Shown here piece after piece: positions 4,104 through 50,455 of a DNA stretch of 64,000 nucleotides. A program made the position numbers and the translations under genes. Under the pieces are notes generated by a model. It was not told where the DNA came from and did no database searches. It was given only the letters and a program-made list of their open reading frames with translations. Position 1 is the stretch's first letter. Every line of letters begins with the position of its first letter. The stretch comes from Cryomorphaceae bacterium 1068 (GTDB lineage Bacteria; Bacteroidota; Bacteroidia; Flavobacteriales_D; Cryomorphaceae): assembly GCA_027214385.1 (NCBI GenBank), contig JAPVXR010000003.1:124001-188000 (forward strand), in the 5' to 3' direction.

Positions 4104-4928
4104 ATGAACTACTTCGTATACCGTTTTTCGTGCGATCCTTTAAAGCCCACCACCGAGATTCTTACCGCTCAGTTGGCGGGGCTCGGCTTTGAAAGCTTTA
4201 TCGATACAGAAACGGGAACGGACGCGTATGTTCCCGCTAATTCAGAATCGGAATCAGAGGTGAAAGTCTTGATCGGAACATTGGAAGGCAACGTGAGTTA
4301 CTTGCGGGAAGAAATTCCCGAGCAAAACTGGAATGCCCAATGGGAAGCCGATTATGAACCCGTTTGCGTAGAAAAGAAATTCAGAGTGCGGGCACCGTTC
4401 CATCAAGTCGATCCTTCTTTTGAGCACGACATCTTGATACAACCCCAAATGTCATTTGGTACGGGCCATCACGAAACCACTTGGCTTATGCTCAACGAGA
4501 TGGAGACCATCGAGTGGGAGGGTCGATCACTACTGGACGCGGGTAGCGGTACGGGAGTGCTGGCTATTGCCGCCCGAAAACTGGGTGCCCATCGAATTCT
4601 GGCTTATGACATTGAAGAGTGGGCCTACCAAAATACCCTGGAGAACATCGCGTTAAATAAAATGGAGATGGAGATCTTAAAAGGAGATGTCTCGGTGATC
4701 GGCCAATCTACTTTTGGCGTGGTTTTGGCCAACATCAACAAAAATGTCCTATTGAACGATATTCCGCATTTTGCCAAAGCACTCGAACCCAAAGGGTACT
4801 TATTCCTAAGCGGCTTTTTCAAAACCGATGTGGATGATTTGGTGGCTTTCGCCGAAAGGCATCATTTGACGAAAGTAGCCGTACAAACCAAGAACGATTG
4901 GGCATTAATCAAACTTATAAAATCGTAG
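4104..4928 (+). CDS. prmA: Ribosomal protein L11 methyltransferase PrmA
   Basis: A cytoplasmic SAM-dependent enzyme that methylates ribosomal protein L11. The 274-residue length fits Bacteroidota PrmA. The FGTGHHET segment (residues 118-125) is the PrmA signature preceding the SAM site. DAGSGTGVLAIAA (about 145-157) is the glycine-rich SAM motif I, and the ANINKNVLL stretch matches the post-motif NxN region that replaces NPPY. The ATG at 4104 is the first start. The next gene begins two bases after the stop, so the two are probably co-translated. Confidence 0.95.
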   Translation: MNYFVYRFSCDPLKPTTEILTAQLAGLGFESFIDTETGTDAYVPANSESESEVKVLIGTLEGNVSYLREEIPEQNWNAQWEADYEPVCVEKKFRVRAPFHQVDPSFEHDILIQPQMSFGTGHHETTWLMLNEMETIEWEGRSLLDAGSGTGVLAIAARKLGAHRILAYDIEEWAYQNTLENIALNKMEMEILKGDVSVIGQSTFGVVLANINKNVLLNDIPHFAKALEPKGYLFLSGFFKTDVDDLVAFAERHHLTKVAVQTKNDWALIKLIKS

Positions 4929-4930
4929 GT

Positions 4931-7900
4931 ATGCTGAAACGCATTTTTATCCTCACTCTATTCACAGCACTCTCCCTTCAGGGCTTTTCGCAACTTCGCG
5001 AGTTTACCCGCGAAAAGCAAGCCTTCTATGACGAGCTCGAAAAACTACTTGTAGAAGCCGACAAAAAGGAAGGCAAGGCGCTGATGGAAGAAACCTTCGG
5101 TCCCTTTTGGCTCAATGGCGACATTTACAATGATGAGCAGAAAGCGAAAATCTACGATGTGGCCGACCTCATGCTCAAGAAGCGATTGCGCCCTTTTCCA
5201 TTTTACAAGTCGTTCATTATCTCCCTCATGTCTTTTCCAGGGTCACCTCAAGAAGGTGAAGGGTTTGATACATGGGTAGAAATAGTCAAGGTTCTGGAAA
5301 ATGGCAGCAAGAAAAAGATTGAGGAGTTTCTGACGATGACGGAAGGACTCTTGACGAGCAATACCTTCTACGAATCTCCTTCTACCATTTGGAAAGGAAC
5401 GAATGCCGGGTGGCAGTTTCGACTGGAAGACAAAGAGTATTTTATCGTTTTTCCTTCTACTGATTTGATCTGTCTTTCGAAAGGAGATAGTTCGGTGATA
5501 TACGCCACCAAAGGAGTTTTTGATCAGCAAAAAGAAAAGTGGAAAGGTGAAGAAGGGAAAATCACCTGGGAGCGGGCTGCGCTGGACCCCAATGAGACTT
5601 ATGCCGTAATTCAGCAGCCTTACGAGCTCAACACACGTTCTGCTTTTTTCAAAATTGATTCCGTTCTTTTCTTCAATGGTTTCTTTCAGTATCCGCTTCT
5701 TGGTACGGTCGAAGACAAGATTCTGGCCAATGTAACTCCGGATAAAGCGACTTATCCGCAGTTTTCATCTTACGATAAGAGATTGGCTATCGAGAACATT
5801 GTAGATAAGGTAGATTACAACGGAGGATTCCGAATGGAAGGGGCCAATCTCCAAGGGTTTGGTTCCAAAAGCGAGCCTGCAACCCTCACCTTCAAAAGAG
5901 ACAATACTCCGCAGGTAGTTACCTATTCACAGTTTTACACCATCAAGCCCGATGCAGTGGCTTCCCAAGATGCTAAGGTCATCATCCTACTTAATAATGA
6001 TTCCATCGTTCACCCAAGCCTGCAGTTAAGATTCAAGAATGAAACTCGCCTGCTTACTCTGATTCGGAGCAATGAAGGGCTGAGTAAGTCTCCCTATTTC
6101 GATACCTACCACGACCTGGAGCTTTACTTTGAGGCATTCTATTGGAATATTGATGATCCGATTATTCGGATGGGAAATCTCTTCGGAAGTACGGAAACCA
6201 GAGCTGCATTTATCTCTTCCAATTTCTTTAAAAAGCAGCTTTACCATGAACTCACGGGAATGGATCGGGTAAATCCCTTATATGCCATCCGGCAATACGC
6301 TCGTAAGATCAATGACGAAACTTTTGGAGCCCAAGGACTTTGTGATGATCTGCGTTTCAGGCTGGAAAGCTATATGCCACGCCTGATTGAAATGGCAAAC
6401 AAGGGATTTATCAATTACGATATCCCTACCCAGACCATTGAGGTAAAGCAGAAGCTCTACGACTACATTGCTGCGGAGGCAGGTAATATCGACTACGATG
6501 TGTTGATGTTCAACTCTGACGTGGCTGATGGCGACAATGCGGAACTCAACTTGATCAATTTTGATTTGGTGCTCAAGGGAGTAGATCGGATTCTACTATC
6601 TGACTCTCAGCAAGTGGCCATATTTCCAAAAGACGGATTGGTCAACGTGCGGAAGAATCGAGATTTTAACCTAGGAGGGGTTATCCGCTCGGGAAAATTT
6701 GAGTTTTATGGAGAGGAATTCGCTTTCGATTACGACAAGTTTCAGATCGATTTGATCACCGTTGACTCCTGCCGACTTTACGTCGAAGACTTCAGGCCTG
6801 AATACACCAGCCTGCGCCGTGTAAAGAACGTAATTGAAGGAATCACGGGGACCATTCAAATCGATAACCCCTTCAATAAATCAGGTCTTCAAGAAGAGTT
6901 TACCGAATTCCCCATTCTCACGGCTGATAAGGAATCATTTGTTTACTACGACAATGTCAATATTCAGCAAGGGGTGTATGAAAGGAGTGAGGTGTTTTAT
7001 GAGCTTGAGCCTTTCATCTTGGATAGTTTGGACAATTTTGCTACCGAGCAGGTGGCGTTTAGTGGGCGCTTTGTTTCAGGAGGAATTTTTCCTGAACTCG
7101 ATGAGAGTCTCAAAATTCAGGAAGACTACTCTCTCGGTTTCGTGCGATCTACTCCTGCAGAAGGTTTACCGCTTTATGGCAATAAAGCAACTTTCAAGAA
7201 TGACATTGTTGTCAATTACAATGGAATTCAAGGAGACGGACAGCTGGAATACTTTACGGCTACTGCCAATTCGGAGCAATTCACCTTCTTCCCTGATAGT
7301 ACACGAGGGATTACCAATTCCTTTACGAATACTTCCGTTTCTACGGGTACTGAAATCCCCGAAGCCAATGCCACTGAGGTTGACCTCACGTACCTGCCGC
7401 TCGCTGACCAGCTGAGCGCCGAGGTAATGCGCGAGCCCATCAATATGTTCAGTGGTCAGGCTATGGCCAAAAAAGGAACGCTTGATTTAACTCCGAAAGG
7501 AATGACAGGAAGAGGAATCGTTGAGTTTTCGGGAGCAGAATTGGAGTCGGATTCCATCCGATACAATTACCAAACCTTCGATGCAGATACCTCCGACTTC
7601 CGTTTACTGGCCCTGTCTGAGGCCAATTTGGCATTTAAAACCAATAACGTAAGCGCTCATATTGACTTTGAAAATCGGGTAGGAGAGTTTAAGTCCAATG
7701 ATGAGGAAACCACGGTAGAGTTCCCTGTAAACCAGTACATCTGTTTCATGGATGAGTTCAAGTGGTTTATGGACAAAAACGACATCTCTCTCGAAACCTC
7801 TCGAGAGATGGCCTCTGACTTCGTAATCGATACCGAGCTCGATATGAGTCGTTCTAACTTTTTTAGTATTAATGAAGATCAAGACTCGCTCAACTTCATG

Positions 7901-9373
7901 TCGCCAAAGGCAATCTATGATCTTGATACATATACTATCACCGCCGATCAGATACCTTGGATCCGCGTGGCTGACGCTAAGATTACACCAGATAGTGGGC
8001 GGGTGGTTATTCGCCGAAGAGCGCAGATGGACGAATTGGAAGATGCTACCATTTTGGCAAATTTCATCACGCAATACCACACCGTACAAAGTGCCACTGT
8101 CAAAATCAATTCGAGATTCGATTACAAGGCTTCAGGTCAGTACGCTTATGTGGATGAAAACAAACTGGAACGACTCATAACGTTGGAGTCCATTGGAGTC
8201 GACACCTCCCTTCAAACGGTAGGTTCGGGTAAAATCCTATCCATCGATGAGTTTTTCTTAAGTCCTCATTTTGAATACCAAGGAACGGTGAATTTGAAGT
8301 CGAACGATAAGTTCCTCACCTTCGACGGAAGTACGAGAATCATTCACGACTGCGACAGACTGGCTCGAAACTGGATGAAGTTCAATTCCATCATTGATCC
8401 TGAGAATGTCTTAATCCCTGTAGATACACTATTGACAGATGATAGAGGAAACCCCGTTGAGGTGGGCCTAATGGCCGAGAAAGACCCTTACATCGTATAT
8501 GGAACTTTCCTTTCGGATAAAAAAGACGATACGAACGAAAGTATCGTGACCTCAAGAGGATTTTTGAAATTCAACAAAAAGGATCAGACTTACGAGGTAG
8601 CGGCTACTGACAAGCTGAATCAGAATTCCCTTCCTGGTAATTACGTCTCTCTGAAAAAGGGAAGCTGTGCATTGACCGGTCTGGGGCGATTGGATTTAGC
8701 CGATGATTTGGGGCAAGTTGGCCTTGATGCTCTGGGAGAACTCAATTACGATCCGGTTAATGATAAAGTAGTGATTAACTCATCGATAGCGCTCAACTTC
8801 TATTTTAGTAGTTCAGCCTTAGATGAGATGCTGAAATACCTCTCCACGGTTTCGGATCTCAAACCGGTAGATTTTACCAAATCGAGGTATGAGTATGCCA
8901 TTAGAGAGCTCATGGGGCTCGAAGCTTCTGACAAAGTCATCTCTGAGTTGAGCTTGAGCGGAACCATCAAAAAAGTTCCTGATGAGTTGAATAAGACCTT
9001 CTTTATTTCAGATGTTAAAATGGTTTGGGACCCTGTAATGGAGTCATTTATTTCGGAAGGAGACATCGGAATTGCTGCTATTGGTAAGGATCAACTTTTC
9101 CGTAAAGTACCGGGTAAATTTGTAGTGGAGAAAAAAGCTAGTGGAGATGTAATGCACCTTTATCTTGAAGTAAATGATGCCAATTGGTACTACTTTACGT
9201 ACAAGAGAGGAGTGCTTCAATCATACTCCGGTAGCAAGGAATTTAACGCGATTCTTCTGGAAGAAAAAGAAGACAAGCGAAAGCAAGCAGGCGACAAAAA
9301 AGAAGACAATTACCTATATATGTTGGGATCAAAAAGCAAGCGGAGTATATTCTTGGATCAATTCGCATTTTAA
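4931..9373 (+). CDS. Very large exported protein of unknown function
   Basis: 1480 residues from the ATG at 4931, which directly precedes a clear signal peptide ending LQGFSQ. The frame opens upstream at 4898, but that start lies inside prmA and lacks the signal. The mature protein is rich in predicted beta strands with repeated short patterns such as GxxxFxGxxLxSDSI and LxFK/FxLxxN, loosely like the stacked strands of OstA/LptA-type proteins. I see no lipobox and no type IX sorting domain. The last residue is Phe, as in many outer-membrane barrels, which is weak evidence only. It follows prmA by two bases and is followed 77 bases later by a giant PorE-like protein, so an envelope role is likely. 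No known family is recognised. Confidence 0.75.
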   Translation: MLKRIFILTLFTALSLQGFSQLREFTREKQAFYDELEKLLVEADKKEGKALMEETFGPFWLNGDIYNDEQKAKIYDVADLMLKKRLRPFPFYKSFIISLMSFPGSPQEGEGFDTWVEIVKVLENGSKKKIEEFLTMTEGLLTSNTFYESPSTIWKGTNAGWQFRLEDKEYFIVFPSTDLICLSKGDSSVIYATKGVFDQQKEKWKGEEGKITWERAALDPNETYAVIQQPYELNTRSAFFKIDSVLFFNGFFQYPLLGTVEDKILANVTPDKATYPQFSSYDKRLAIENIVDKVDYNGGFRMEGANLQGFGSKSEPATLTFKRDNTPQVVTYSQFYTIKPDAVASQDAKVIILLNNDSIVHPSLQLRFKNETRLLTLIRSNEGLSKSPYFDTYHDLELYFEAFYWNIDDPIIRMGNLFGSTETRAAFISSNFFKKQLYHELTGMDRVNPLYAIRQYARKINDETFGAQGLCDDLRFRLESYMPRLIEMANKGFINYDIPTQTIEVKQKLYDYIAAEAGNIDYDVLMFNSDVADGDNAELNLINFDLVLKGVDRILLSDSQQVAIFPKDGLVNVRKNRDFNLGGVIRSGKFEFYGEEFAFDYDKFQIDLITVDSCRLYVEDFRPEYTSLRRVKNVIEGITGTIQIDNPFNKSGLQEEFTEFPILTADKESFVYYDNVNIQQGVYERSEVFYELEPFILDSLDNFATEQVAFSGRFVSGGIFPELDESLKIQEDYSLGFVRSTPAEGLPLYGNKATFKNDIVVNYNGIQGDGQLEYFTATANSEQFTFFPDSTRGITNSFTNTSVSTGTEIPEANATEVDLTYLPLADQLSAEVMREPINMFSGQAMAKKGTLDLTPKGMTGRGIVEFSGAELESDSIRYNYQTFDADTSDFRLLALSEANLAFKTNNVSAHIDFENRVGEFKSNDEETTVEFPVNQYICFMDEFKWFMDKNDISLETSREMASDFVIDTELDMSRSNFFSINEDQDSLNFMSPKAIYDLDTYTITADQIPWIRVADAKITPDSGRVVIRRRAQMDELEDATILANFITQYHTVQSATVKINSRFDYKASGQYAYVDENKLERLITLESIGVDTSLQTVGSGKILSIDEFFLSPHFEYQGTVNLKSNDKFLTFDGSTRIIHDCDRLARNWMKFNSIIDPENVLIPVDTLLTDDRGNPVEVGLMAEKDPYIVYGTFLSDKKDDTNESIVTSRGFLKFNKKDQTYEVAATDKLNQNSLPGNYVSLKKGSCALTGLGRLDLADDLGQVGLDALGELNYDPVNDKVVINSSIALNFYFSSSALDEMLKYLSTVSDLKPVDFTKSRYEYAIRELMGLEASDKVISELSLSGTIKKVPDELNKTFFISDVKMVWDPVMESFISEGDIGIAAIGKDQLFRKVPGKFVVEKKASGDVMHLYLEVNDANWYYFTYKRGVLQSYSGSKEFNAILLEEKEDKRKQAGDKKEDNYLYMLGSKSKRSIFLDQFAF

Positions 9374-9450: not shown

Positions 9451-12400
9451 TTGGCTTCAAAAATCAAATACTCCCTGTGTTTGGTGGTGATTAGCCTGAT
9501 GGCTGCTATCCACGTTAGAGCACAGTACAGTGAGCAAGACTTAATTGAAGAAGCAAACGCACTTTTTGACAAAGGTGAATTTGCTGAAGCAATGCCGCTG
9601 TACTCGCAACTTTTAAGTCTCAACCCTACAAATCCGGTTTTTAATTACAAGTACGGTGCTACGGCGCTATATGGTGATGCTGAAAAGAAAGAAGAGGCCA
9701 TCAAGTACCTCAAGTTTTCAGTTGGGAAACCCAATGTTGACGACCAAAGTTGGTACTATCTCGGTAGGGCTTATCACCTCAACTATTTGTTTCAAGATGC
9801 CATATCAGCATATGAGAAGTACAAGACCTTGGCATCTAATAGTGATCTTGAGGAGAAAGAAGTTGGCTTAAAAATTTCAATGGCCAAGAGCGGCCAGAAC
9901 CTGCTTTCGCAAATCAAAGAGATCAAGGTTCTTGATAAGAAACAATCATCTGTCGAGTCGTTTTTCAGGATTTACGATCTGAGCGATATCGGAGGTAAAA
10001 TCTTAGTAACTCCCGAAGAACTCCTTTCTTCTGAAGACAAAAAACGCAATCACCGCTCTCTGATCCACTTTAGAGGAGCGGGTACTACAATCTACTTTTC
10101 CAGTTATGGCAAGAGTGGAAAGAATGGTTTGGATATCTACCATGCAGATGTACTTCCAGATGGCTCTTACACTGATCCTGTAGCCGTTCAAGGTTCCATC
10201 AATACGCCTTACGACGAAGATTTTCCCTACCTGCATCCTGACGATAAAACCTTTTACTTTTCTTCAAAAGGTCACGGAAGTATGGGGGGCTACGATGTCT
10301 ACAAATCCGGGTTTAGTAAAGCCAGTGGAGTATTTAGCACTCCCGTCAATTTAGACTTTGCCGTCAATACTCCCGACGATGATCTGTTTTACTTGGCCGA
10401 CTCCTTAAACGAGATGGCCTATTTTGCTTCTGCACGAAGCAGTAAGCAGGGACAGCTTGATGTGTATAAAGTACTGGTTAAGAGTGCTCCAATCGATATT
10501 ACTTTGATCAAAGGTACATTCATTAATCAAATAGATCCGAGTAAGAAATTAGCAAAGATTACCACTATTGATGCTACCACTAATAAAGAGGTAGACATTC
10601 AATATACTGATCCCACTACGGGAGAATACGTGCTCAGTTTTCCAAAAGGTGGAAAGTACAAGTTCTTGGTTGAGGAAAAGAGCAGCGACAAAATTCACGC
10701 TGGTCTTGTAGATGTTCCATCTTCAGCCGGTGTGAATGCCTATCTCCAAGAAATGGAACTCATTTCATCGGTAGGTGTGGAGAAACTGATGATCAACAAC
10801 TTGTTTGATCAGACTTACGATGGCGATGTAATGGCCTTGGCTCAGAAGATGCTACGCCAACGTGCAGCGCTTGATGTCAATTTCGACCCAAATGCCGAGC
10901 CTACCGTAACAGATACACCCGACGTCGAGAAAGATCCGGCTTTGGCTTATTCTGATGCAGGATTTGGCGCGGGAATGACCAATGAAACCATTCTGGAACA
11001 AGCTGAAGCACGTGTTGAAGAACTAAAAGATAGGCAACTGCTCACGGCTCAACTGGCAGAAGGGGCAGCTCGATCTTCTGATGCATATTTTACCAATGCA
11101 CAAGACAAGGGCAATAAAGCCGAGAGTTTGGTCACCGAAGCGAATTCTGCTAGTTCTGAAAATCGAAACTCATCGATGTATAGTGCGGCATTCGCTAAAC
11201 TTGAGGCAGAAACGGCTTTGCGTAAAGCGACTAATTCTAAAAGCCTGAAGGACGAACTTTATCAAAAGGCGACTGTAGCAAAAGAGGAATATGAGGCTGA
11301 GAAAGCCCGTGTTGACTCTTTGAGAGAAGCCATCGATTCCAATGACTACGATGGTATTTACGCAGGCTTAGTAGCCGAAAGAGAAAAGAGAGAGAGCATT
11401 GACCAAATCGAAGACCGATTTGATCCCGTTCAAGATATTCGCAGAAGTGGTTTAAAATCAAACTCCGAAGCACAAAAGCTATTGGAAAAAGCTCAGAGCT
11501 TGAGAGATCAAGAGGAACAGCTTAATGCAACGCTAATTACAAGGCGGACGCAGAGCACAAAAATGAAGGGTAAAGATCTTAAGCAAGTAGAGGAAGAGAT
11601 TACCGTTCTGGAATCAGATATTGAAAGTGCCAAGCGAAGGACCGAGAGAGCCTTTAAGCAAGCTGAGGATGCTCAGATTCTAGCTGACAATGAAATTCAA
11701 GAATTTGAAATTCTCAAAGAAATTGCGGATTCCAATGATCCGACACTTGTTCCTGAGGAATCAGAGCCGGTTGTTTCTTGGTCTGATCCGGAACAAAAAC
11801 TATTGGCAGAGAGTCTAAGAGATTTGCCAATTGACAATGCGGCAATAGCGGCTTATACAAGCGAACATCCAGAGGTCTTCGATCAAATGGATTCAGAGGC
11901 TATGGCCATGAATTTCCGACGGACTTATGGTGCCGGAAATGAAACGACCGATGATGTGGCAATGATTGCTTCAAAGCAGGGTGAGTCAGAAAGCTTGATA
12001 GCCGACAATTCACAAACGGATTCTAATCAACCTGAACAGGAAGTGGCTTCATCGGAAACACCTTCTGACAGTAAGTCTAATGACATAAGTCAGAATCCGG
12101 ATTCCGAAACAAACACTATTATGGAAGGAGCAGTAGGAGCTGCTGCAGTTGTAGGAACGGGACTTCTTGGAGGAGAAAATTCTACAGAAGAAGCTGAAGT
12201 TGAAGAATCCGAAGATTTGGCAATTGAATACGACGAAAGCCTTCCTGTAGAAAAACGCATCGAAGCCGAAGAGTTGAAAATACAAGCTGCAGAAGATTGG
12301 GTTGCTATCATAGATGAGTCCATTGAACAACTTGAGAGTGGAGTAGGGGGCGAAGAAGACGTGGAGGAGCAACTTGCGGATTACAGAAAGCTGCGAGATC

Positions 12401-15400
12401 AAAAGGCATCTGAAATTGGACAAAGGCAAGAGCTCATATCTGCTTGGGAAAATGAGATTTCTGATGTGCCTACAGCTGAGGCTTTGGCTCGGGCAGGAGC
12501 TGACCTAGACACTTTGAGCCCTTCGTTTGTCGCCAGGCTAGAATCAAAAATTCCTGACTATTCTACCGAGATAAAGTCCATAAGGTCGGTAAGTGCAATT
12601 AACAGAAACTACCTTCCAACTCTCGCTGAGATAGAAATTTCAGGTCTGAGTGCTCCCGAAATGGCTGAGAAGCGAATCGAGCTCAATGAAGGTTTTATAG
12701 CAGACATTGATCAAATTCTTAATGAGGGAATCGACTCAGAAGTATCTGAAGAGGACCTTGTCGAGATGCGAAGAGTCAAAATGCTCGAACTCCGACAAGA
12801 TGAGGAGGTCATGGAAGGAAAGGCTGTTTTTGTCCCGAGATCGGAAGAAGCAAAGAGTTATGCTGAGCTGATTAAACAAGAAGAAGATATAGAAGAGATT
12901 CCAAATGAAATTGAGTCTGAAAGCGAGTATACAGAGCTTAGTCCTGCCATGGCGCAGTCGCTTCAAAATGACTATTCAAGAGAGTCTGTTTTACCGGACT
13001 ACTCTGCCTTACTAGAAGAAGCTGAGCTCACCACCAATCCACAAATAGCCCAAGCACAACGTGTGAAGGTGAAAGAAGATTTTTTAATACGACTTCAATC
13101 GGAAATATCCATCTACAAAGCTGCGGTTGACGCGGCAGAGAGCCCAGACCCTCAACTGGTTGAGAGGTATACTGAGCTACTTCGTGAAAGATCTGATATG
13201 ATTGATGAGGTCAATAGCGATAAAGCTACGTTAATGGCTTTCGAAAGTGATGAAATAGCTGATGAAGAAATTCAGATTTCAGCAGACTCTTTAATCACAG
13301 TCCTTCGTGTGAGTGCCATTTCGATTGATAACGAAACAGATCAAGCGCCGACTCAATTTGAAATTGATGAAGCAAATGAATTGGTGTCGGATCAGATAGA
13401 CGAATATGTCGCTATTCTCGATGACCCGCAAGCAAAGGTGAATCGAGATGCCGTTCAAGTGGAAATTCAAAAGCTACAAGCTTTCCAAACCGAACTGTCC
13501 GCCTCAGCGCAAGATCAAATATTAGCTGAGAATAGGTCAACACAGGAACTAACCGCGGAAAAAAGCCCAGTGGAACTGGAAGAGGACATGGCAGAGGAAT
13601 CTGACGAGACTCCTGTGAGTGAATTGACAGAAACCGGACTTGAGACATCGGCTAATGTGCCCGTGGGTGAAGCACTAACAGCGGTGGGAGGCGATGACAA
13701 AGAATCGAGCGAAATAGCGCAAAGCACGGATGAGACCGAAACTCCAATCACCGAAGCTCAACGCAAAGAATTTGAAGATATTCTCAGTATATCAGAAGGT
13801 TTTGTCATCGATTTTGATCAGAAGGCCACGGTCGTTATTAAAGATACTGACGTTGAAGAGCGGGAACTGATAGCTCTTGCACGATTAAACGATGCATTTG
13901 TTGAATCCATTGAGAACAAGGTAGATTCCCTGGAATCGATCAAATATGAGGGAGATGAGGAGTTCCAAAATGTGATTGATGAGGAAATCCTTGAGCTTCA
14001 AGCGCTCAGTGCGGATAAGCAACAAGAATCTGATCGACTGATGGCTGAGGCCGAATTGATGGAGATGGCCCAAACCAAGGCTCCTGCCATAGCGGAAGAG
14101 TCGAATACTCTTGTTGAAGACTTCGACGAGCGCATTTCAGAAATAAAAACCCCTGATTTATCTACTATTCAGTACAAATCTCTAAATGCCTCGATGATCA
14201 GAAATGGATTGAAATCAAAATCAGATTCATTGAATCAGCTGAAAAGAGAGTACGCTGATTTGACTACGGAGGCTGAACGCTCAGCTTCCTTGGCTGATAT
14301 AGAAAGAATCAATACAGAATTGACTGAGGGAATCAATCAATCAAATTTTGCAGAGATCGAATTCTACCGAAACGAGAATGAGAGAATCATTTCTCACTTG
14401 GATCCGAATGCCTCGGCAAATCGGGAAGAAATGATTGCCCTCCAGGCTAAAGCTACCGAATTAAATTCTAAAGTGACCGAGCTTGAACTGGGTGATAATA
14501 CGGATGAGCAAATGCAATTGATTGCTGAATTGGCGGAGGTTAATACTTCCCTGGGATCATTTACTCAGGCAGATACAGAAACTGATGATAGTGTCATCTT
14601 GGAAGACATGACATCGGCGCTTTTGCTACCTGAAAGTCACGAGACTCTGCCCAATAAGGCTTACCTCACGGAAATGCAATCGGTCATGGTAAGTAATATG
14701 ACTGAGGAGCGTCGGGAAGAATTGATGACTCAAGATGAGATCCTGAAAGTGAATCTCGATTTTTCAGAAACAAATTCAGTAGATGTTAAGAAAGAATTGA
14801 TCGCCGGCAATACAAAGGTTGATGCAATCGGATTGAATCTTTTGGCCGAATCTCCTGACCAACTTGACTATCTGGTCGCTATGGTGCGCGCTGATAGCCT
14901 GAAGTCGCTGGAGCGGAATAGTGCAGCCTACGCTGAAATGAAACAAAATCAAGCTATCGAAAGAAGTGCAGAAGCTGATAGACTGCTCAAAATGTTGCCT
15001 AATCAGGAAACTGATCGTGATCGTGAGAGCGTAAAAGCTCGCGCTAAGAAGCTGGAGCAAGAGGCCGAAGTTTTGTACGAAAAATCTGCAGTGGCAGCGC
15101 AACAAGCTGAGATGGCTCGAGCGAAAAGGTCCGATAATGACCAAGAACTTATTGCACTTTCAACCGATCTTTCCTTCAAGCAAAGAAGAGCGCTTGATGA
15201 TTTGCTCTTAAAGCCTGGCTATCGAATTATTCCATCTGAGGAGTCTGCCGAAGAGTTAGCTGAGGGTACTTCCACAAGGATTGTTGAAGAAACTCCAAGG
15301 GTAGAAAAAGAGATGCCTGCAGAGAAAACTGAAGTTTCCAAATCGAGTACTTCAACTAACGGCTTGGATGCACTTAAAGGTAACTGGCTGGGCATGGTTG

Positions 15401-16536
15401 AAATCATTGCTGAGAAAGATGATTTCTCTGATGTAGAAGGCTCAATGTTTGCGGAGGCACCCGTCAGCGTGTATTCAGCAGACAAACCCATTCCCGTTGA
15501 CCCCGTGATGCCTGATGGATTGATATTCCAAGTACAGGTTGGTGCTTACCGCAATCCTATACCACAAGACCTTTTCGGTCCTTATGCGCCTATAATGGGG
15601 CAGAAGCTCGACAATGGTATCACCAGGTACCGTGCAGGATTATTCAAAAAGTATAATGAAGCCATCCAAGCGAGAAACGAGATTAGAGAAAAGGGGTATA
15701 GCGATGCTTTCGTAGTGGTTTATGTAAATGGCGAAAAGCTAACCGGAGCAGAAGCACGTGATATCTTGGCTCAAGCCAAAGCCAAAGAAACCATCAGTGT
15801 TGAATTGGTTTCGGGAGTACCTACCGACGAGCCTCTTGTAGATATCTCAGAAATTGTTGAGGAAACTCCAAAGCTAAACACCGAGTACTACAATGACCCT
15901 GAAGCAGCCGAAGCTGCTCAAGTTGAAGTTATCACAGGGTTATTCTACACCGTTCAGGTGGGAGTCTACAGCAAGCCTGTAAAGCTAGATCAACTGTTTA
16001 ACCTTACTGAGCTCAACAGTGAATTGACTGGCTCTGGAGTAATCAGATATACTACAGGAAGGTTTGCTGACCTTAAGGAAGCTACCAGCCGTAAAGAACT
16101 TGCTCGAGAAAAAGGAGTTTCTGATGCATTTATTACGGCCTATTACAACGGAAAGCGTATTTCTTTAGCAGAAGCAGAAAGAGCCCTTGCAACAGAAGGA
16201 GTGGGTATTCTGGCAGATCAAGCATCTAAGACAGAAGTGGAATCAATAGAACCCAAAAATACTGCTGAAAAAGAAAACGATGAATCCTATGTGGTTATCA
16301 TGGGCACCTTTGCCAGTGATGTGCCACAAGAATTGGCAGATCTCTTTTTGGAGAATAAGTCTTGGGGCATTCGTAAGATTCAAGGGCCTGGAAATGGCGC
16401 CATTTATCTTTCGGAAGATATCGAGACCCTGGAAGACGCTAAGAAACTTCTTGAAGAGTGCAGAAAGCTCAATATTCGTTCTGCCACCATTGGTAAGATG
16501 AAAAACGGTCAAATCACTTCTGTACAAATCGATTAA
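9451..16536 (+). CDS. Giant PorE-like protein: TPR, PD40 propeller, CRD, acidic coiled coil, SPOR-like modules
   Basis: 2361 residues. The signal peptide, ending in HVRAQ, requires the TTG at 9451: no in-frame ATG exists between the upstream stop (9427) and codon 17. Domains in order: TPR-like helices (about 26-150); a PD40/WD40-like propeller (about 190-345) with repeats such as TIYFSS, TFYFSSKG and AYFASA, each followed by a DxY motif; and a carboxypeptidase-regulatory-like domain (about 353-420). Then comes a Glu-rich coiled-coil region (about 500-2000). Three SPOR-like modules start near 2025 (IFQVQVGAY), 2165 (FYTVQVGVY) and 2279 (YVVIMGTF). The first three domains match the order in T9SS protein PorE, whose C-terminus is OmpA-like. 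Here SPOR-like domains could supply peptidoglycan binding. A hydrophobic Gly/Ala patch lies near residue 890. The T9SS link is inference. Confidence 0.85.
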   Translation: MASKIKYSLCLVVISLMAAIHVRAQYSEQDLIEEANALFDKGEFAEAMPLYSQLLSLNPTNPVFNYKYGATALYGDAEKKEEAIKYLKFSVGKPNVDDQSWYYLGRAYHLNYLFQDAISAYEKYKTLASNSDLEEKEVGLKISMAKSGQNLLSQIKEIKVLDKKQSSVESFFRIYDLSDIGGKILVTPEELLSSEDKKRNHRSLIHFRGAGTTIYFSSYGKSGKNGLDIYHADVLPDGSYTDPVAVQGSINTPYDEDFPYLHPDDKTFYFSSKGHGSMGGYDVYKSGFSKASGVFSTPVNLDFAVNTPDDDLFYLADSLNEMAYFASARSSKQGQLDVYKVLVKSAPIDITLIKGTFINQIDPSKKLAKITTIDATTNKEVDIQYTDPTTGEYVLSFPKGGKYKFLVEEKSSDKIHAGLVDVPSSAGVNAYLQEMELISSVGVEKLMINNLFDQTYDGDVMALAQKMLRQRAALDVNFDPNAEPTVTDTPDVEKDPALAYSDAGFGAGMTNETILEQAEARVEELKDRQLLTAQLAEGAARSSDAYFTNAQDKGNKAESLVTEANSASSENRNSSMYSAAFAKLEAETALRKATNSKSLKDELYQKATVAKEEYEAEKARVDSLREAIDSNDYDGIYAGLVAEREKRESIDQIEDRFDPVQDIRRSGLKSNSEAQKLLEKAQSLRDQEEQLNATLITRRTQSTKMKGKDLKQVEEEITVLESDIESAKRRTERAFKQAEDAQILADNEIQEFEILKEIADSNDPTLVPEESEPVVSWSDPEQKLLAESLRDLPIDNAAIAAYTSEHPEVFDQMDSEAMAMNFRRTYGAGNETTDDVAMIASKQGESESLIADNSQTDSNQPEQEVASSETPSDSKSNDISQNPDSETNTIMEGAVGAAAVVGTGLLGGENSTEEAEVEESEDLAIEYDESLPVEKRIEAEELKIQAAEDWVAIIDESIEQLESGVGGEEDVEEQLADYRKLRDQKASEIGQRQELISAWENEISDVPTAEALARAGADLDTLSPSFVARLESKIPDYSTEIKSIRSVSAINRNYLPTLAEIEISGLSAPEMAEKRIELNEGFIADIDQILNEGIDSEVSEEDLVEMRRVKMLELRQDEEVMEGKAVFVPRSEEAKSYAELIKQEEDIEEIPNEIESESEYTELSPAMAQSLQNDYSRESVLPDYSALLEEAELTTNPQIAQAQRVKVKEDFLIRLQSEISIYKAAVDAAESPDPQLVERYTELLRERSDMIDEVNSDKATLMAFESDEIADEEIQISADSLITVLRVSAISIDNETDQAPTQFEIDEANELVSDQIDEYVAILDDPQAKVNRDAVQVEIQKLQAFQTELSASAQDQILAENRSTQELTAEKSPVELEEDMAEESDETPVSELTETGLETSANVPVGEALTAVGGDDKESSEIAQSTDETETPITEAQRKEFEDILSISEGFVIDFDQKATVVIKDTDVEERELIALARLNDAFVESIENKVDSLESIKYEGDEEFQNVIDEEILELQALSADKQQESDRLMAEAELMEMAQTKAPAIAEESNTLVEDFDERISEIKTPDLSTIQYKSLNASMIRNGLKSKSDSLNQLKREYADLTTEAERSASLADIERINTELTEGINQSNFAEIEFYRNENERIISHLDPNASANREEMIALQAKATELNSKVTELELGDNTDEQMQLIAELAEVNTSLGSFTQADTETDDSVILEDMTSALLLPESHETLPNKAYLTEMQSVMVSNMTEERREELMTQDEILKVNLDFSETNSVDVKKELIAGNTKVDAIGLNLLAESPDQLDYLVAMVRADSLKSLERNSAAYAEMKQNQAIERSAEADRLLKMLPNQETDRDRESVKARAKKLEQEAEVLYEKSAVAAQQAEMARAKRSDNDQELIALSTDLSFKQRRALDDLLLKPGYRIIPSEESAEELAEGTSTRIVEETPRVEKEMPAEKTEVSKSSTSTNGLDALKGNWLGMVEIIAEKDDFSDVEGSMFAEAPVSVYSADKPIPVDPVMPDGLIFQVQVGAYRNPIPQDLFGPYAPIMGQKLDNGITRYRAGLFKKYNEAIQARNEIREKGYSDAFVVVYVNGEKLTGAEARDILAQAKAKETISVELVSGVPTDEPLVDISEIVEETPKLNTEYYNDPEAAEAAQVEVITGLFYTVQVGVYSKPVKLDQLFNLTELNSELTGSGVIRYTTGRFADLKEATSRKELAREKGVSDAFITAYYNGKRISLAEAERALATEGVGILADQASKTEVESIEPKNTAEKENDESYVVIMGTFASDVPQELADLFLENKSWGIRKIQGPGNGAIYLSEDIETLEDAKKLLEECRKLNIRSATIGKMKNGQITSVQID

Positions 16537-16564: not shown

Positions 16565-16588
16565 TATCTTTGTATGAAATACAAAGAT
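16565..16588 (+). promoter_or_regulatory. clpS promoter -7 element within a perfect inverted repeat
   Basis: TATCTTTG at 16565-16572 is a perfect TAnnTTTG box. It overlaps a dyad: ATCTTTGTAT (16566-16575), three bases, then its exact complement (16579-16588). The dyad covers the -7 element and the expected transcription start. It could be an operator or a 5' hairpin. Confidence 0.6.
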
Positions 16589-16590
16589 CA

Positions 16591-16875
16591 ATGGTCAATA
16601 TTGACACCCTGATAGAAGAAGAATTAGATATCCTGACAAAGGAGATCACGGAAGAAACGAAGGAGATTGTTCTTTACGATGATGACTTCAACACCTTCGA
16701 TTTTGTAATCGAAAGCCTGATAAAAGTATGTCAGCATTCTGCTATTCAAGCAGAACAGTGCACCCACATTGTTCATTACAATGGTAAGTGTGGTGTAAAA
16801 AGAGGCAATATGTCCAAACTTAAGCCAATGGTATCGGCTTTACTAGAAAGGGGACTAACTGCTGAAATAATCTAA
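16591..16875 (+). CDS. clpS: ATP-dependent Clp protease adaptor ClpS
   Basis: A small cytoplasmic adaptor that delivers N-end-rule substrates to ClpAP-type proteases. 94 residues from the ATG at 16591. The LYDDDFNTFDFVIESL segment is the ClpS core that recognises the N-terminal residue, and the C-terminal HYNGKCGVKRG...LERGLTAEI matches the family end. The frame extends up to a TTG at 16570, but that lies on the promoter box, so 16591 is preferred. An out-of-frame ATG at 16574 opens a 12-codon reading frame overlapping the clpS start. The M48 protease gene begins one base after the stop, pointing to a joint proteostasis operon. Confidence 0.92.
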   Translation: MVNIDTLIEEELDILTKEITEETKEIVLYDDDFNTFDFVIESLIKVCQHSAIQAEQCTHIVHYNGKCGVKRGNMSKLKPMVSALLERGLTAEII

Positions 16876-16876
16876 G

Positions 16877-17677
16877 ATGAAAAGAAAAATCTTCTCCATT
16901 CTTGCCGTAGCAATCATTGCACAGGCATGCTCCACTGTACCCGTAACAGGGAGAAAACAACTCAAGCTCTTGCCAAGTTCTGAAATGCAAGCGATGAGTG
17001 CAACGGAGTATGATAAATTTTTAGCTCAGAATCCGCCACTCCCTGCCTCTGATCCGGAAGCTCAACGAATTAAGCAGATCGGTGCTGATATTGCTGCTGC
17101 TACAGAAAAGTACTTGAATGAAAACGGTCATGAAGGTTTGGTGTCAGATTTTGACTGGACATTTAATCTCGTGGATGATGAAACCCTCAACGCTTGGTGT
17201 ATGCCCGGTGGGAGAGTCGTGTTTTATGCAGGGATTCTTCCCGTTTGTAAAAATGACAATGGGATAGCAGCCGTTATGGGCCATGAGGTAGCACATGCGG
17301 TGGCGCGGCATGGTAATGAAAGAATGAGTCAGCAATTGGCACTCCAAGGTGCCGGCATGAGTCTTAGCGCTGTCTTGCAGGAGCAACCTGCTCTCACACA
17401 TGATTTGGCACTTCAGGCTTTTGGAATGGGATCTCAGTTTGGAGTATTGGCATACTCCAGACAGCACGAAAGCGAAGCGGATAAAATGGGTTTGATTTTT
17501 ATGGCTATTGCAGGTTACGACCCGCGCGAAGCCGTAAAAGTTTGGGAGAGAATGGCACAACTCGGTGGCCAGCAACCACCGGAATTCATGAGTACACACC
17601 CAAGCCATGAAACACGAATTGACGAGCTCAATGCCTTCATGGATGAGGCGATGAAATACTACAAACCCAGAAATTAA
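16877..17677 (+). CDS. M48 family zinc metallopeptidase, lipoprotein (LoiP/BepA-like)
   Basis: 266 residues. The lipobox IAQAC marks it as a lipoprotein, so it acts in the periplasm at the envelope. The zinc site HEVAH is at 136-140, and the third ligand is Glu200 in HESEADKMG; both are canonical for M48. GRKQL after the lipobox and the STHPS motif before ETRI near the C-terminus are typical of the M48C/LoiP group that removes damaged or misassembled envelope proteins. It follows clpS by one base, so the two are probably one transcript. No PDZ or TPR domain is attached, unlike full-length BepA. Confidence 0.93.
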   Translation: MKRKIFSILAVAIIAQACSTVPVTGRKQLKLLPSSEMQAMSATEYDKFLAQNPPLPASDPEAQRIKQIGADIAAATEKYLNENGHEGLVSDFDWTFNLVDDETLNAWCMPGGRVVFYAGILPVCKNDNGIAAVMGHEVAHAVARHGNERMSQQLALQGAGMSLSAVLQEQPALTHDLALQAFGMGSQFGVLAYSRQHESEADKMGLIFMAIAGYDPREAVKVWERMAQLGGQQPPEFMSTHPSHETRIDELNAFMDEAMKYYKPRN

Positions 17678-29250: not shown

Positions 29251-29299
29251 CGAAGGTAAAACTTTAAATGCACCGACTTGGTCGGGAGTTATACCTTTG
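29251..29299. promoter_or_regulatory. Divergent promoter region with central dyad
   Basis: A minus-strand TACCTTCG (29258-29251) faces the OsmC-fusion gene and a plus-strand TACCTTTG (29292-29299) faces the acylase gene. Between them lies a dyad CCGAC-TTG-GTCGG at 29273-29285, close to the midpoint. Both open frames extend back into this region but must start inside it. Confidence 0.5.
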
Positions 29300-29325
29300 G
29301 GGATTATTACTATTTCAAAGAGCGC

Positions 29326-31743
29326 ATGGGTAAATTATTAAAGTACTTCTTGTTAACCGCCTTAGCGGTAATACTAATCTTTTGGGTCTTCATACAGAGC
29401 CACCAGCCTGTGCTGAAGGGGAAGCTTGACATCGCCACACTTGAAGCGCCTGTTGAAGTTTACTTCGATGAGTATGGTATTCCCCATATCTATGCTGATA
29501 ATGCCGAAGATGCTTACCGTGCTTTTGGTTACGTGCACGCTCAAGACAGGCTTCTTCAAATGGATTTGATGAGACGAGCGGGTGGAGGCCGACTCTCAGA
29601 AATCATTGGCCCCGATATGAAAGAAGCCGATATGTTCTTCCGAACCTTAGGGACCAATCGACAAGCCGTAAAAGATGCAGCCAAATTTGATGAACTTCCG
29701 GAGAAAGTGAGATCCATTACTGTTGCTTACCTCGAAGGGGTAAATTCATTCATACAGACAGGGAAACACCCGCTGGAGTATAAGTTGCTTCGCGTCGAGC
29801 CCGATACATTTACGGTTGAAGATGTGTATTGCATTTCGGCTTACATGGCCTACAGCTTTGCGTATGCTTTGAGAACAGACCCTTTGGTACAAGACATTTC
29901 TACCAGTCTGGGACCCGATTACTTAAGGTCGTTGGATTTGGCGGTAACGGTTGACCTCTTGCCAGTGGATACTACACGTTCGGATACCTTGGTTACCGAC
30001 TCAATCACACCAAGGCCGAGTTTGAGTATGACACGACCCCATTTACCCGATATGCTTCCTATCCCGACTTTGCAGGGGAGTAATAGTTGGGCAATAGGTC
30101 CGTCGCGCACCCTTTCGGGAAAGGTGATGCTCGCAAATGACACACACATCAAATATTCTGCACCGGCCGTTTGGTATGAAGCCCACATAGAATATCCGGG
30201 TTTTGGTTTCTACGGAAATTTTATCGCAGGTGTGCCGATCGCACTAGTCGGTCATAGTCGAAATCACGCTTGGGGCCTCACTATGTTTGAAGACGATGAT
30301 TCAGATTTCTTCTTCGAGCGATTCTCAGAACCTGATAGCAGCTACACTGATTACCGCGATAGCTTGAATGCGCCCGTTAGGAAATTCAAAGAGACGCTTT
30401 CCATCAAAGGAGAACCTGACACGTCATTCACGGTTTACGAAACGGTACACGGTGTACTGGTAAATGATATTCTTCCCATAGAACAGGACCGTCCCGTGTC
30501 CATGTATTGGAATTATACCAATATGGATAACCAGCTATTGGAAGCTTTCTACAGATTGAATCGAGCGGACAATATTGCTGAATTCAAGAAAGGGGTAGAG
30601 ATGATTACAACTGTGGGCTTGAATATTACCTACGGTGATGCATCAGGAAATATAGCACACTGGTCTGCAAGTAAACTCTTGATCAGACCTGATTCGGTAG
30701 ACGGAAAACACTTTGCCGAAGGCTATTCACCCAATGCCAACTACAAAGGCTTCTACGACTTTGAGGATAATCCACAAGTTGAAGAACCGTTTGTAGGTTT
30801 TGTTCATTCGGCTAATCAATTTCATGATTCAACGTCAGGTATTTTATACCCTGGCTATTACGCGCCAAACACGCGAGCCAATCGAATTGAGGAGTTAATG
30901 AAACTTCAAACAACGGCGACTGTCGAAAGCATCCAAAACATGACCCTCGACAACGTATCGACCACCGAAGCAGATATCGCTCACGAAATAGCCAGAGTTA
31001 TTCGTCGATCGAACGAAGTACTCACCGACCTTGAAGAAATGGCGCTCGAGGAAATTGAAGTATGGTTGGGCTCTCATGATTTGGAAGACGTTGAGCCTAC
31101 CATATACTACAAGACCCTTTACTATGTGTTGAAAAACTCGATGGAAGATGAAATGGGCGATGAGAAATTTCAAAAACTATTTAAGACGCATCTACTCAAG
31201 CGCAGCTATCCAGCACTAATGGTAAATGACGAGTCGCCATGGTGGGACGATCTGCAAACAGTTGGTCTTACTGAAACAAGAGAAATAATTTTCATTAAAT
31301 CTTTCAAGAAGGCGGTGATGGAAATCAACGAAGAGCTGGGAAGCGATATTGCCACTTGGCAATGGCAGAGAGTCCACTTTATTGAGCATCCTCATCCGTT
31401 TTCAGATATTTCTGTTCTAAAACAGTTTTTCCATATCGGTCCATTTCCTGCTCCGGGCGGAAATGAGACTATTAATAATGCCTCTTTCATATTTAATGGA
31501 AATGGCACTTACACTGCTCATTACGGCCCTGCAATGCGTATCGTCATCGATTTTGCAGATATCGAAAATGCTACTTCGATTTTACCAACGGGTAACAGCG
31601 GTAATGTAATGAGTCCGTATTACAGCGACCAGGCAGAGATGTATGTAAGAGGAGAATTCCGAAAAATGAAAATGAATAAGGCTGAAATCAAGAAATCAAA
31701 TAATCTCTTGATGCTGCTACCTCCTGAAAAAGAGGAGGAATGA
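29326..31743 (+). CDS. Penicillin acylase family protein (Ntn hydrolase)
   Basis: An exported or membrane-anchored N-terminal-nucleophile amidase; members cleave acyl groups from beta-lactams, acyl-homoserine lactones or other amides. 805 residues from the ATG at 29326, followed by a hydrophobic segment (LLKYFLLTALAVILIFWVF) that can act as signal anchor. The alpha chain contains DxYGIPHIYADNxEDAYRAFGYVHAQDRL. The autoproteolysis site precedes Ser252 in GSNSWAIGPSRT, which becomes the beta-chain nucleophile. The TTG at 29278 lies on the promoter region and is rejected as start. The T9SS type B gene follows after 31 bases and may be co-transcribed. Confidence 0.93.
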   Translation: MGKLLKYFLLTALAVILIFWVFIQSHQPVLKGKLDIATLEAPVEVYFDEYGIPHIYADNAEDAYRAFGYVHAQDRLLQMDLMRRAGGGRLSEIIGPDMKEADMFFRTLGTNRQAVKDAAKFDELPEKVRSITVAYLEGVNSFIQTGKHPLEYKLLRVEPDTFTVEDVYCISAYMAYSFAYALRTDPLVQDISTSLGPDYLRSLDLAVTVDLLPVDTTRSDTLVTDSITPRPSLSMTRPHLPDMLPIPTLQGSNSWAIGPSRTLSGKVMLANDTHIKYSAPAVWYEAHIEYPGFGFYGNFIAGVPIALVGHSRNHAWGLTMFEDDDSDFFFERFSEPDSSYTDYRDSLNAPVRKFKETLSIKGEPDTSFTVYETVHGVLVNDILPIEQDRPVSMYWNYTNMDNQLLEAFYRLNRADNIAEFKKGVEMITTVGLNITYGDASGNIAHWSASKLLIRPDSVDGKHFAEGYSPNANYKGFYDFEDNPQVEEPFVGFVHSANQFHDSTSGILYPGYYAPNTRANRIEELMKLQTTATVESIQNMTLDNVSTTEADIAHEIARVIRRSNEVLTDLEEMALEEIEVWLGSHDLEDVEPTIYYKTLYYVLKNSMEDEMGDEKFQKLFKTHLLKRSYPALMVNDESPWWDDLQTVGLTETREIIFIKSFKKAVMEINEELGSDIATWQWQRVHFIEHPHPFSDISVLKQFFHIGPFPAPGGNETINNASFIFNGNGTYTAHYGPAMRIVIDFADIENATSILPTGNSGNVMSPYYSDQAEMYVRGEFRKMKMNKAEIKKSNNLLMLLPPEKEEE

Positions 31744-49394: not shown

Positions 49395-49402
49395 ATCAGC
49401 TT

Positions 49403-50455
49403 ATGAGAAAAACGGCTCTGACACTTGCTTTTTTCACCGCGCTTCTGACTTCGCAGGCTCAGCAGGACTTCCATTATTCACAGTTTTTTGCTTCGCCAAT
49501 TACTTATAATCCAGCGAATACAGGAGCTTTCGAAGATGATATTCGTGGGACTTTGAACTATCGCAGCCAGTACGGCTCGGTGGCGGAGCCCTACAAAACC
49601 TTCGGTTTATCGGTAGATGCTCCGATAAAAATATCCAATGATGCCTACGACCAAAACTTTCTGGGTGTTGGTTTAACTGTGGTTAATGATAATGCAGGAA
49701 CAATCGATTTCAACCAATTACATATTGCAGGTTCTGCAGCTTACGCGATAGATTTGGGTGGAACCGAGCAAAATCCTCATTACATCTCTTTGGGATTGCA
49801 GGTGGCCTTTATTCAGCGATCCATGAATTTTACTAATTCAACATGGGAAACGCAATGGACTGGTACTAATTTCAATCAATCTACATCCAGTGGTGAGGCT
49901 TATGTCGGAGACTTGACTGAATCGAATGTTTCGTTAGGTGGTGGAATCTCTTGGTTTAATGCTTTCAGTGACAATGCACGAATACTCGCAGGAGCAGCTG
50001 TCCTAAATGCCAATACGCCATCTATGGAATTATTAGGCCAACAAAATGATCTTCTTAGAAAGTACACCGGTCACGTGAGTTTGGCCGTCGCACCTGAAAC
50101 TCAAAGCGTAATTTATTATCCAAATGTGTTCGTAATGTTTCAAGGTCCAAATCGAATTATCGATGTAGGTTCTGAAATTGAGTTTTCTCTTTGGGAGCGA
50201 ACTGAGTTTACTGATCATAGAAATAACCTTTCTATGAATTTAGGTGCATATTACCGTGTGCAAGACGCCATTTATTTTATCGGTCGTGTTAATTACTATG
50301 ACCTCTCTCTGGGTGTTAGCTATGACTTCACCGCCTCTCAATTATCAGAAAATAACAATGGACAAGGAGGAGTAGAGTTGGTGATCGGTTATCGAACCAC
50401 CTTTAACGGGCCTGGCACCAATCGTCAGAAATTGATCAGAAGCAAAGGACTCTAA
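49403..50455 (+). CDS. Type IX secretion system protein, PorP/SprF family
   Basis: 350 residues; an outer-membrane beta-barrel protein. Signal peptide ends TSQAQ. The mature N-terminus QDFHYSQFFASPITYNPANTGAF is the family hallmark, and the C-terminal VGLxYDF-like strands (ISLGLQVAF, LGVSYDF, VELVIGYRT) fit a 14-stranded barrel. SprF-like proteins handle or anchor type B cargo such as SprB. The gene starts eight bases after the PKD cargo gene, so this pair is very likely co-expressed and functionally matched. Confidence 0.94.
   Translation: MRKTALTLAFFTALLTSQAQQDFHYSQFFASPITYNPANTGAFEDDIRGTLNYRSQYGSVAEPYKTFGLSVDAPIKISNDAYDQNFLGVGLTVVNDNAGTIDFNQLHIAGSAAYAIDLGGTEQNPHYISLGLQVAFIQRSMNFTNSTWETQWTGTNFNQSTSSGEAYVGDLTESNVSLGGGISWFNAFSDNARILAGAAVLNANTPSMELLGQQNDLLRKYTGHVSLAVAPETQSVIYYPNVFVMFQGPNRIIDVGSEIEFSLWERTEFTDHRNNLSMNLGAYYRVQDAIYFIGRVNYYDLSLGVSYDFTASQLSENNNGQGGVELVIGYRTTFNGPGTNRQKLIRSKGL

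Follow-up and report, generated by a model that had tools for sequence, protein, structure and literature searches.

The open reading frame at 9451 to 16536 on the forward strand of the window (the whole stretch of 64,000 nucleotides that was analysed) encodes a 2361-residue protein that is a SPOR-ended relative of PorE, with an architecture that is conserved across many families and so far has no name. Judging from the sequences, what would be new is the combination, in many families, of a head of the PorE superfamily with an exchanged wall anchor, set behind a spacer that is giant and varies in length. We give a little better than even odds (roughly 55%) to the reading that this protein acts in the periplasm as a tether, linking peptide-free (septal) glycan to a partner on the side of the outer membrane. 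The gene, its parts and its neighbours lie in the window as follows.

4104 to 4928, forward strand: prmA, a conserved syntenic neighbour.
4931 to 9373, forward strand: upstream neighbour of 1480 aa, predicted to be LptA/C/D-like and mostly beta (synteny, AF2, fold searches).
9451 to 16536, forward strand: whole gene for the TPR/PD40/CRD-helical-SPOR protein, 2361 aa (single open frame; homologues).
9451 to 9525, forward strand: signal-peptide-like N-terminus, residues 1 to 25 (judged from the sequence by eye; without a lipobox).
9541 to 9840, forward strand: TPR repeats, residues 31 to 130 (Pfam TPR models).
10048 to 10485, forward strand: PD40 blades matching PorE blades 3 to 5, about residues 200 to 345 (profiles; the blade numbering is our reading).
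10495 to 10785, forward strand: probable CRD-like domain, about residues 349 to 445 (CarboxypepD_reg in 17 of 57 homologues; conserved columns).
10843 to 15405, forward strand: acidic helical spacer, residues 465 to 1985, of a length that varies in homologues (composition, periodicity, AF2 of the second half).
15517 to 15765, forward strand: SPOR module 1, residues 2023 to 2105 (profile, AF2; main glycan-contact residues present).
15937 to 16188, forward strand: SPOR module 2, residues 2163 to 2246 (Gln, aromatic and first Arg kept; second Arg replaced).
16285 to 16527, forward strand: SPOR-fold module 3, residues 2279 to 2359 (AF2, structural alignment; Ile replaces the key Gln).
16570 to 16875, forward strand: clpS, a conserved downstream neighbour.
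16877 to 17677, forward strand: M48 peptidase gene, often next after clpS (best NCBIfam match BepA, under the cut-off).

The frame at 9451 to 16536 is real, as the sequence-only reading of this DNA had it, and uninterrupted across all 2361 codons; we infer that TTG is the start codon. No enzyme domain was found in the protein by the Pfam scan, and a crude lipobox pattern matched none of the 72 full-length long-protein rows, the wrong stretch having been scanned in at least one of them (L084). Two alignments, each of the window and those 56 of 80 named loci whose frame was full-length, had a mean column identity of 45% for the N-terminal part and 13% for the C-terminal 1200 residues, and the invariant columns of the latter were all within the SPOR part. 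The conserved parts of the long family are the head and the SPOR modules.

Several Pfam TPR models matched residues 31 to 130, under their cut-offs in the scan of the whole protein, and TPR_2 and TPR_14 exceeded theirs once the N-terminus was scanned alone. PD40 matched residues 249 to 284 above the Pfam cut-off (E = 7.9e-7). Among the 57 aligned N-termini, PD40 was matched by 54, TPR_14 by 41 and CarboxypepD_reg by 17 (E ≤ 0.1; best E for CarboxypepD_reg, 3.1e-6), and the window's own row was not among the 17 at this threshold. Alignment of the head by hhalign with a profile of 15 of the 29 PorE-type proteins (probability 99.9, E = 1.1e-36) spanned the TPR and the late blades and stopped short of the CRD, and the PorE columns that we read as blades 1 and 2 had no counterpart in the head. 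Of the earlier claim that TPR, PD40 and CRD follow one another as in PorE, the TPR, the PD40 and the order therefore stood and the CRD is less sure, but the first two PorE blades are without a match. With these two blades unmatched, the surface by which PorE meets its partner may be missing.

All 57 heads matched both the CHU_0125_OmpA and the PorE models (E ≤ 0.001). The best NCBIfam match of the window's head was CHU_0125 (NF053607; 87.9 bits for the whole protein, 104.1 for the N-terminus, far below the cut-off of 620), ahead of PorE (NF052230; 74.8 and 76.2 bits, likewise far below the cut-off of 600). The 600-bit cut-off was reached in none of 20 related genomes, in which the best score was 533.7 bits, and is thus strict for this clade. 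No Pfam match to an OmpA domain was obtained in the 2361-residue protein at E ≤ 1, and the OmpA peptidoglycan-binding motif LSX2RAX2V was present in 0 of 72 long proteins; a looser form of the motif was present in 25 of 29 PorE-type proteins. In a tree of 51 rows, the 15 long rows (the window and 14 homologues chosen by hand) stood together beyond a branch with 100/100 support and a length of 1.22, and on its other side were 20 PorE-type, 9 lipoprotein-type and 7 other own-genome rows.

The PorE model matched 28 places in the genome, the long gene included. A search for a separate OmpA-type porE, proposed with the sequence-only reading, yielded a full-length candidate elsewhere in the same genome (L037, G000:C8:138031-139959), which scored 530 bits, under the 600-bit cut-off, and for which PorE was the best of its NCBIfam matches. 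The second-best match to the PorE model was a CHU_0125-type lipoprotein relative, also in this genome (L038, on G000:C1). Inspected by eye, the best match (L037) showed no lipobox and the CHU_0125-like protein (L038) had one. Since the C8 candidate shows none either, the absence of a lipobox cannot separate the long protein from PorE, and the PorE homologues of F. johnsoniae are, in the available part of PMC7192894, reportedly not predicted lipoproteins. We rejected PorE as a label for the long protein (76 against 600 bits, no OmpA domain, a clade of its own and a separate PorE candidate). On this comparison of sequences, the head belongs to the PorE/CHU_0125 superfamily and the long protein is not PorE.

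The spacer (residues 465 to 1985) contained 22.8% D+E, with a net charge of −196, and its helical periodicity at 3.5 was 1.31, versus 0.87 ± 0.13 in local shuffles; by these measures it is made of amphipathic helices. In the AF2 model of residues 1162 to 2361 (57 aligned sequences; pTM 0.37), residues 1162 to 1985 formed separate helices of 4 to 52 residues with breaks and low-confidence gaps. What had been described as an acidic coiled coil of 1500 residues is indeed acidic, helical and about 1500 residues long, but in the modelled half it consists of many helices, none longer than 52 residues, and one continuous coiled coil was unsupported there. A simple anchor word allowed the spacer to be measured in 31 of 72 rows, where its length was 949 to 2269 residues, with a median of 1409. 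In two genomes of 2.3 to 2.4 Mb (L228 and L229), the entire frames were only 1156 and 1195 aa; these short members had a clear head (196 and 186 bits) and one clear SPOR-like module (24 and 17 bits), with a second below 5 bits. This range and the shortened members indicate that reach is variable and that the head and the anchor are the parts kept.

In the Pfam scan of the whole protein, the match to SPOR (PF05036) was weak (E = 0.061, 14.1 bits); the excised stretch of two modules passed the gathering cut-off of 21 (E = 3.3e-6, 27.8 bits), and SPOR was matched at E ≤ 1 by all 19 aligned homologues. Of 21 candidate stretches with modules, 19 (all but L056 and L060) went into a SPOR-pair profile. 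AF2 predicted three compact SPOR-like modules with block-mean pLDDT of 82 to 97, except for two edge blocks of module 3 (65 and 77), and the structure prediction that had been proposed for the C-terminal region (modelled as residues 1162 to 2361) thus favored SPOR-like folding of the modules. With VIA, module 3 was aligned to the SPOR domain of RlpA (6i05; Z 8.3, rmsd 2.4 Å, 72 of 76 residues aligned) and to CwlC (1x60; Z 8.1, 76 of 79 aligned), Z values that are barely above the level reached by chance arrangements. These SPOR entries cover module 3 only, so modules 1 and 2 rest on the profile and on predicted secondary structure. Foldseek with the model of the C-terminal 1200 residues returned nothing at E ≤ 0.001, and in a profile search of solved structures the sole match was CwlC 1x60 (E = 0.016).

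In RlpA, glycan is held by Q270, F274, R302, R309 and R311 and by the backbone of residues such as A273 and N276, as given in the available part of PMC6895207. We mapped these contacts, R302 excepted, by motif position onto modules 1 and 2 of 19 proteins. The equivalent of Q270 was Gln and the position of F274 aromatic in 38 of 38 copies, and the R309 position was Arg in 35 of 38; Arg was present at the R311 position in only 10 of 38 copies (0 of 19 in module 2), Asn at the N276 position in 13 of 38 and Ala at the A273 position in 22 of 38. In module 3, the conserved Gln position is occupied by I2283, and this module may have a structural role only. The earlier claim of three SPOR-like modules is therefore upheld by the profile and by the predicted fold, but the third lacks the key glycan-contact Gln. 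The profile and the predicted fold also bear out that the wall anchor differs from that of PorE, SPOR standing in place of OmpA behind a long spacer. By profile, the 72 full-length rows had two modules in 37, three in 33 and four in 2, counts that are too low since the profile detects just two in the window protein.

The modules could also be read as those of a division-specific scaffold, in which SPOR directs the protein to the septum and the TPR/propeller head recruits wall hydrolases or regulators, with no role as a tether. The main glycan contacts are kept in the SPOR modules, the TPR and propeller are generic docking modules, and the part of PMC6895207 available describes an enrichment of denuded glycan in the septal ring, all of which would suit a scaffold. 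However, no amidase, LytM or fts family was found among the 10 neighbouring ORFs scanned (702 to 22628), and the relatives of the head are outer-membrane/wall tethers. We consider a scaffold of this kind rather unlikely, and prefer the periplasmic tether.

In the scan of named genomes, the best 80 of 413 confirmed loci were all in MAGs with Bacteroidota-type titles, mostly of Flavobacteriales; they included Crocinitomicaceae, Vicingaceae, Cryomorphaceae and Fluviicola, and a few were titled Chryseobacterium or Chitinophaga. A full-length frame (1699 to 3197 aa) was present in 56 of these best 80. Among 197 genomes sampled from the window's class (Bacteroidia, to judge by these titles), the long gene was counted in 80: 78 with a SPOR-pair score of at least 154 bits, six of which had frames shorter than 1000 aa that were probably clipped by contig ends, and two with lower scores (G014 and G024). 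At E ≤ 1e-8, the SPOR-pair profile matched 148 of the 197, many of them through ordinary SPOR frames. Class frames of about 750 to 780 aa (e.g., G077:C12, G166:C10 and G130:C12) matched most of this profile. In the window's own order, 188 of 245 genomes matched at E ≤ 1e-30, the long frame not being verified one by one, a figure that bounds the true number neither from above nor from below, because some shorter paralogues are included and diverged members missed. In a phylum-wide draw, 3 of 198 genomes matched at E ≤ 1e-25, all from the own order; this draw says little about other classes, because the 20 listed non-matching rows were all of the own class. None of the sampled members of families f46, f50 and f63 scored as a carrier, though most have SprA; one might speculate that absence from such groups is a reason why the family is unnamed.

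The sequence-only reading had suggested a linker between the type IX secretion system (T9SS) and the cell wall. In such a linker, SPOR would take over from the OmpA anchor, and the head would bind either to the PorK/N ring or to a PorP-like barrel. PorE has been proposed as a bridge between PorP and peptidoglycan (PMC9143113, in the part available). The head is distantly related to PorE, the genome has SprA and 14 PorP/SprF-family genes, and SprA was present in 79 of 80 class carriers of the long gene. However, SprA was also present in 112 of 117 genomes without the long gene (Fisher P = 0.40), which shows that type IX secretion does not need it, and the only long-gene class genome without SprA was a 95%-complete draft (G114). 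With SprA near-universal (191 of 197 genomes in the class, 243 of 245 in the order), co-occurrence is uninformative as evidence of a T9SS tie. The separate full-length PorE candidate, the clade formed by the long rows, the distance of 33 kb from the long gene to the closest PorP/SprF-family gene and the absence of T9SS genes among the family-matched immediate neighbours all count against the linker as well. The present data give no T9SS tie; the linker is thus unsupported, and we regard it as improbable.

By coordinates, five PorE-paralogue loci (C1, C2, C10, C11 and C17) adjoin a PorP/SprF-family gene. The window itself holds, at 46404 to 50455 on the forward strand, a gene for a PKD-repeat protein with a type B T9SS sorting domain and a PorP/SprF-family gene directly after it, likely a substrate-shuttle pair. 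A Choice-of-anchor L domain protein with a T9SS type B sorting domain is encoded at 31775 to 34453 (forward strand), adjoined by a gene for a penicillin-amidase-family acylase at 29278 to 31743. The 1814-residue protein at 35650 to 41094 (forward strand) has a CRD-like start (under the cut-off), many TPR matches and a weak match to Amuc_1098, and belongs to no clear family.

The surroundings of the long gene were conserved. Among named loci that had both a full-length frame and sufficient flanking sequence, clpS followed it in 41 of 50, an M48 peptidase gene was downstream in 28 of 44 and the 1480-residue neighbour upstream in 34 of 51, and prmA was seen in 15 of the 20 loci L047 to L066. For the upstream neighbour, no Pfam match at E ≤ 0.01 and no NCBIfam match at E ≤ 0.1 was obtained, and a profile search of solved structures gave nothing convincing (best E, 0.39). 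AF2 predicted its residues 281 to 1480 to be largely beta, interspersed with short helical stretches (pLDDT 86.7, pTM 0.49). With this model, the best Foldseek matches were LptD and ApoB (1e-5; TM-scores near 0.1), and the first 18 VIA rows (Z 7.7 to 10.2) covered three parts of the model; the titles of 17 name Lpt complexes or their components, and the remaining one, 4q35, we take to be LptD. If the model is right, the neighbour is possibly a giant periplasmic LPS/lipid bridge.

The neighbour of the window was aligned with 36 further neighbour frames, each 1000 aa or longer. We found the neighbour family in 167 of 197 class genomes, namely, 79 of 80 long-gene carriers and 88 of 117 non-carriers (Fisher P = 1e-6, uncorrected for ancestry). 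In the 79 class genomes with both, the two genes were at most 20 kb apart in 32, on different contigs in 43 and more than 20 kb apart on one contig in 4. At 16 neighbour loci in genomes without the long gene, prmA was present in 9 and clpS in 4, and a PlsY-like ORF adjoined the neighbour in 7 (by resemblance; confirmed by Pfam in L182); in one genome with both genes, PlsY (L198, by Pfam) sits between them. This looks like a housekeeping block that either gained the long gene by insertion or once had it and lost it.

The long protein might be a functional partner of this neighbour, holding a lipid bridge near the growing wall. The adjacency in 32 of the 79 class genomes and in the 34 named loci, the presence of the neighbour in all but one of the carriers and its LptD/C/A-like predicted fold are consistent with a partnership; yet the neighbour is as well found in the 88 genomes without the long gene, a PlsY-like ORF stands in the place of the latter at 7 of the 16 loci, the genes are separated by contigs or by more than 20 kb in 43 and 4 of the 79, respectively, and shared absence may come from ancestry. 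We give this partnership a slim chance. It is very improbable that the long SPOR protein and the LptA/C/D-like neighbour form an uncharacterised envelope system by which a lipid-carrying bridge across the periplasm is kept at the denuded septal wall; were this so, outer-membrane supply would be coupled to constriction.

The preferred reading, that of a periplasmic tether, takes export, an outer-membrane-side partner, glycan binding, septal location and tethering from the domains. The long protein would be exported by Sec and be soluble in the periplasm, where the TPR-propeller-CRD head would dock on a putative outer-membrane-side partner; since no lipobox or anchor was seen, contact with the outer membrane rests on this partner. 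The acidic helical arm would be a flexible spacer, and SPOR modules 1 and 2 would hold peptide-free (denuded) glycan, so that the outer membrane would be tied to newly remodelled wall. By analogy, the protein would do what Pal/CHU_0125 or PorE does, but through a different wall anchor. Counting for a tether are the SPOR profile matches and predicted fold, the Gln, aromatic and first Arg contacts kept in modules 1 and 2, and the kinship of the head with PorE and CHU_0125; counting against it are the RlpA contact positions that are not kept, the PorE blades without a match, the pTM of 0.37 for the C-terminal model and the ability of SPOR proteins to work in division without an outer-membrane tie. 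In function, the nearest parallel to the head is CHU_0125, which is Pal-like; its deletion weakens the outer membrane and leads to the release of six times more vesicles (PMC5891637, in the part available). If the SPOR modules bind as they do elsewhere, the long family would be a tether directed to division sites.

In one open library, we found no description of the long SPOR-ended family and no papers linking SPOR with T9SS PorE, with PD40 or a coiled coil in Bacteroidetes or with Flavobacteri-, and the only matches to these combinations concerned type II secretion. The outer-membrane-to-wall tethers in the literature found were PorE and the Pal-like proteins, and the long family would be a separate tether. 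Its existence as a common unnamed family with SPOR modules instead means that the PorE-type head is not bound to OmpA anchors.

The protein resembles PorE (PG1058 of Porphyromonas gingivalis), as described in the available parts of PMC7192894 and PMC5053529, in the order of TPR, PD40 and CRD (the CRD being less sure here) and in having a C-terminal domain of a peptidoglycan-binding kind. PorE of P. gingivalis has five blades and an OmpA_C domain, is a lipoprotein and holds its domains within residues 25 to 668 (same sources and parts), whereas in the long protein the first two blades are without a match, no OmpA motif and no lipobox were found, and a helical spacer of 1500 aa leads to SPOR modules, in a clade of its own. 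PorE homologues with N- or C-terminal extensions are mentioned in the part of PMC5053529 available, where only proteins with all four PorE domains were taken into the homologue set. As to the CHU_0125 family (NF053607), the model is named OmpA-like, and CHU_0125 is a putative peptidoglycan-associated lipoprotein in the available part of PMC5891637. With RlpA and CwlC, the long protein shares the SPOR profile and fold and, in modules 1 and 2, the main glycan-contact residues; RlpA and CwlC are wall-lytic enzymes, whereas here the SPOR modules stand at the end of a very long chain that starts with a PorE-type head.
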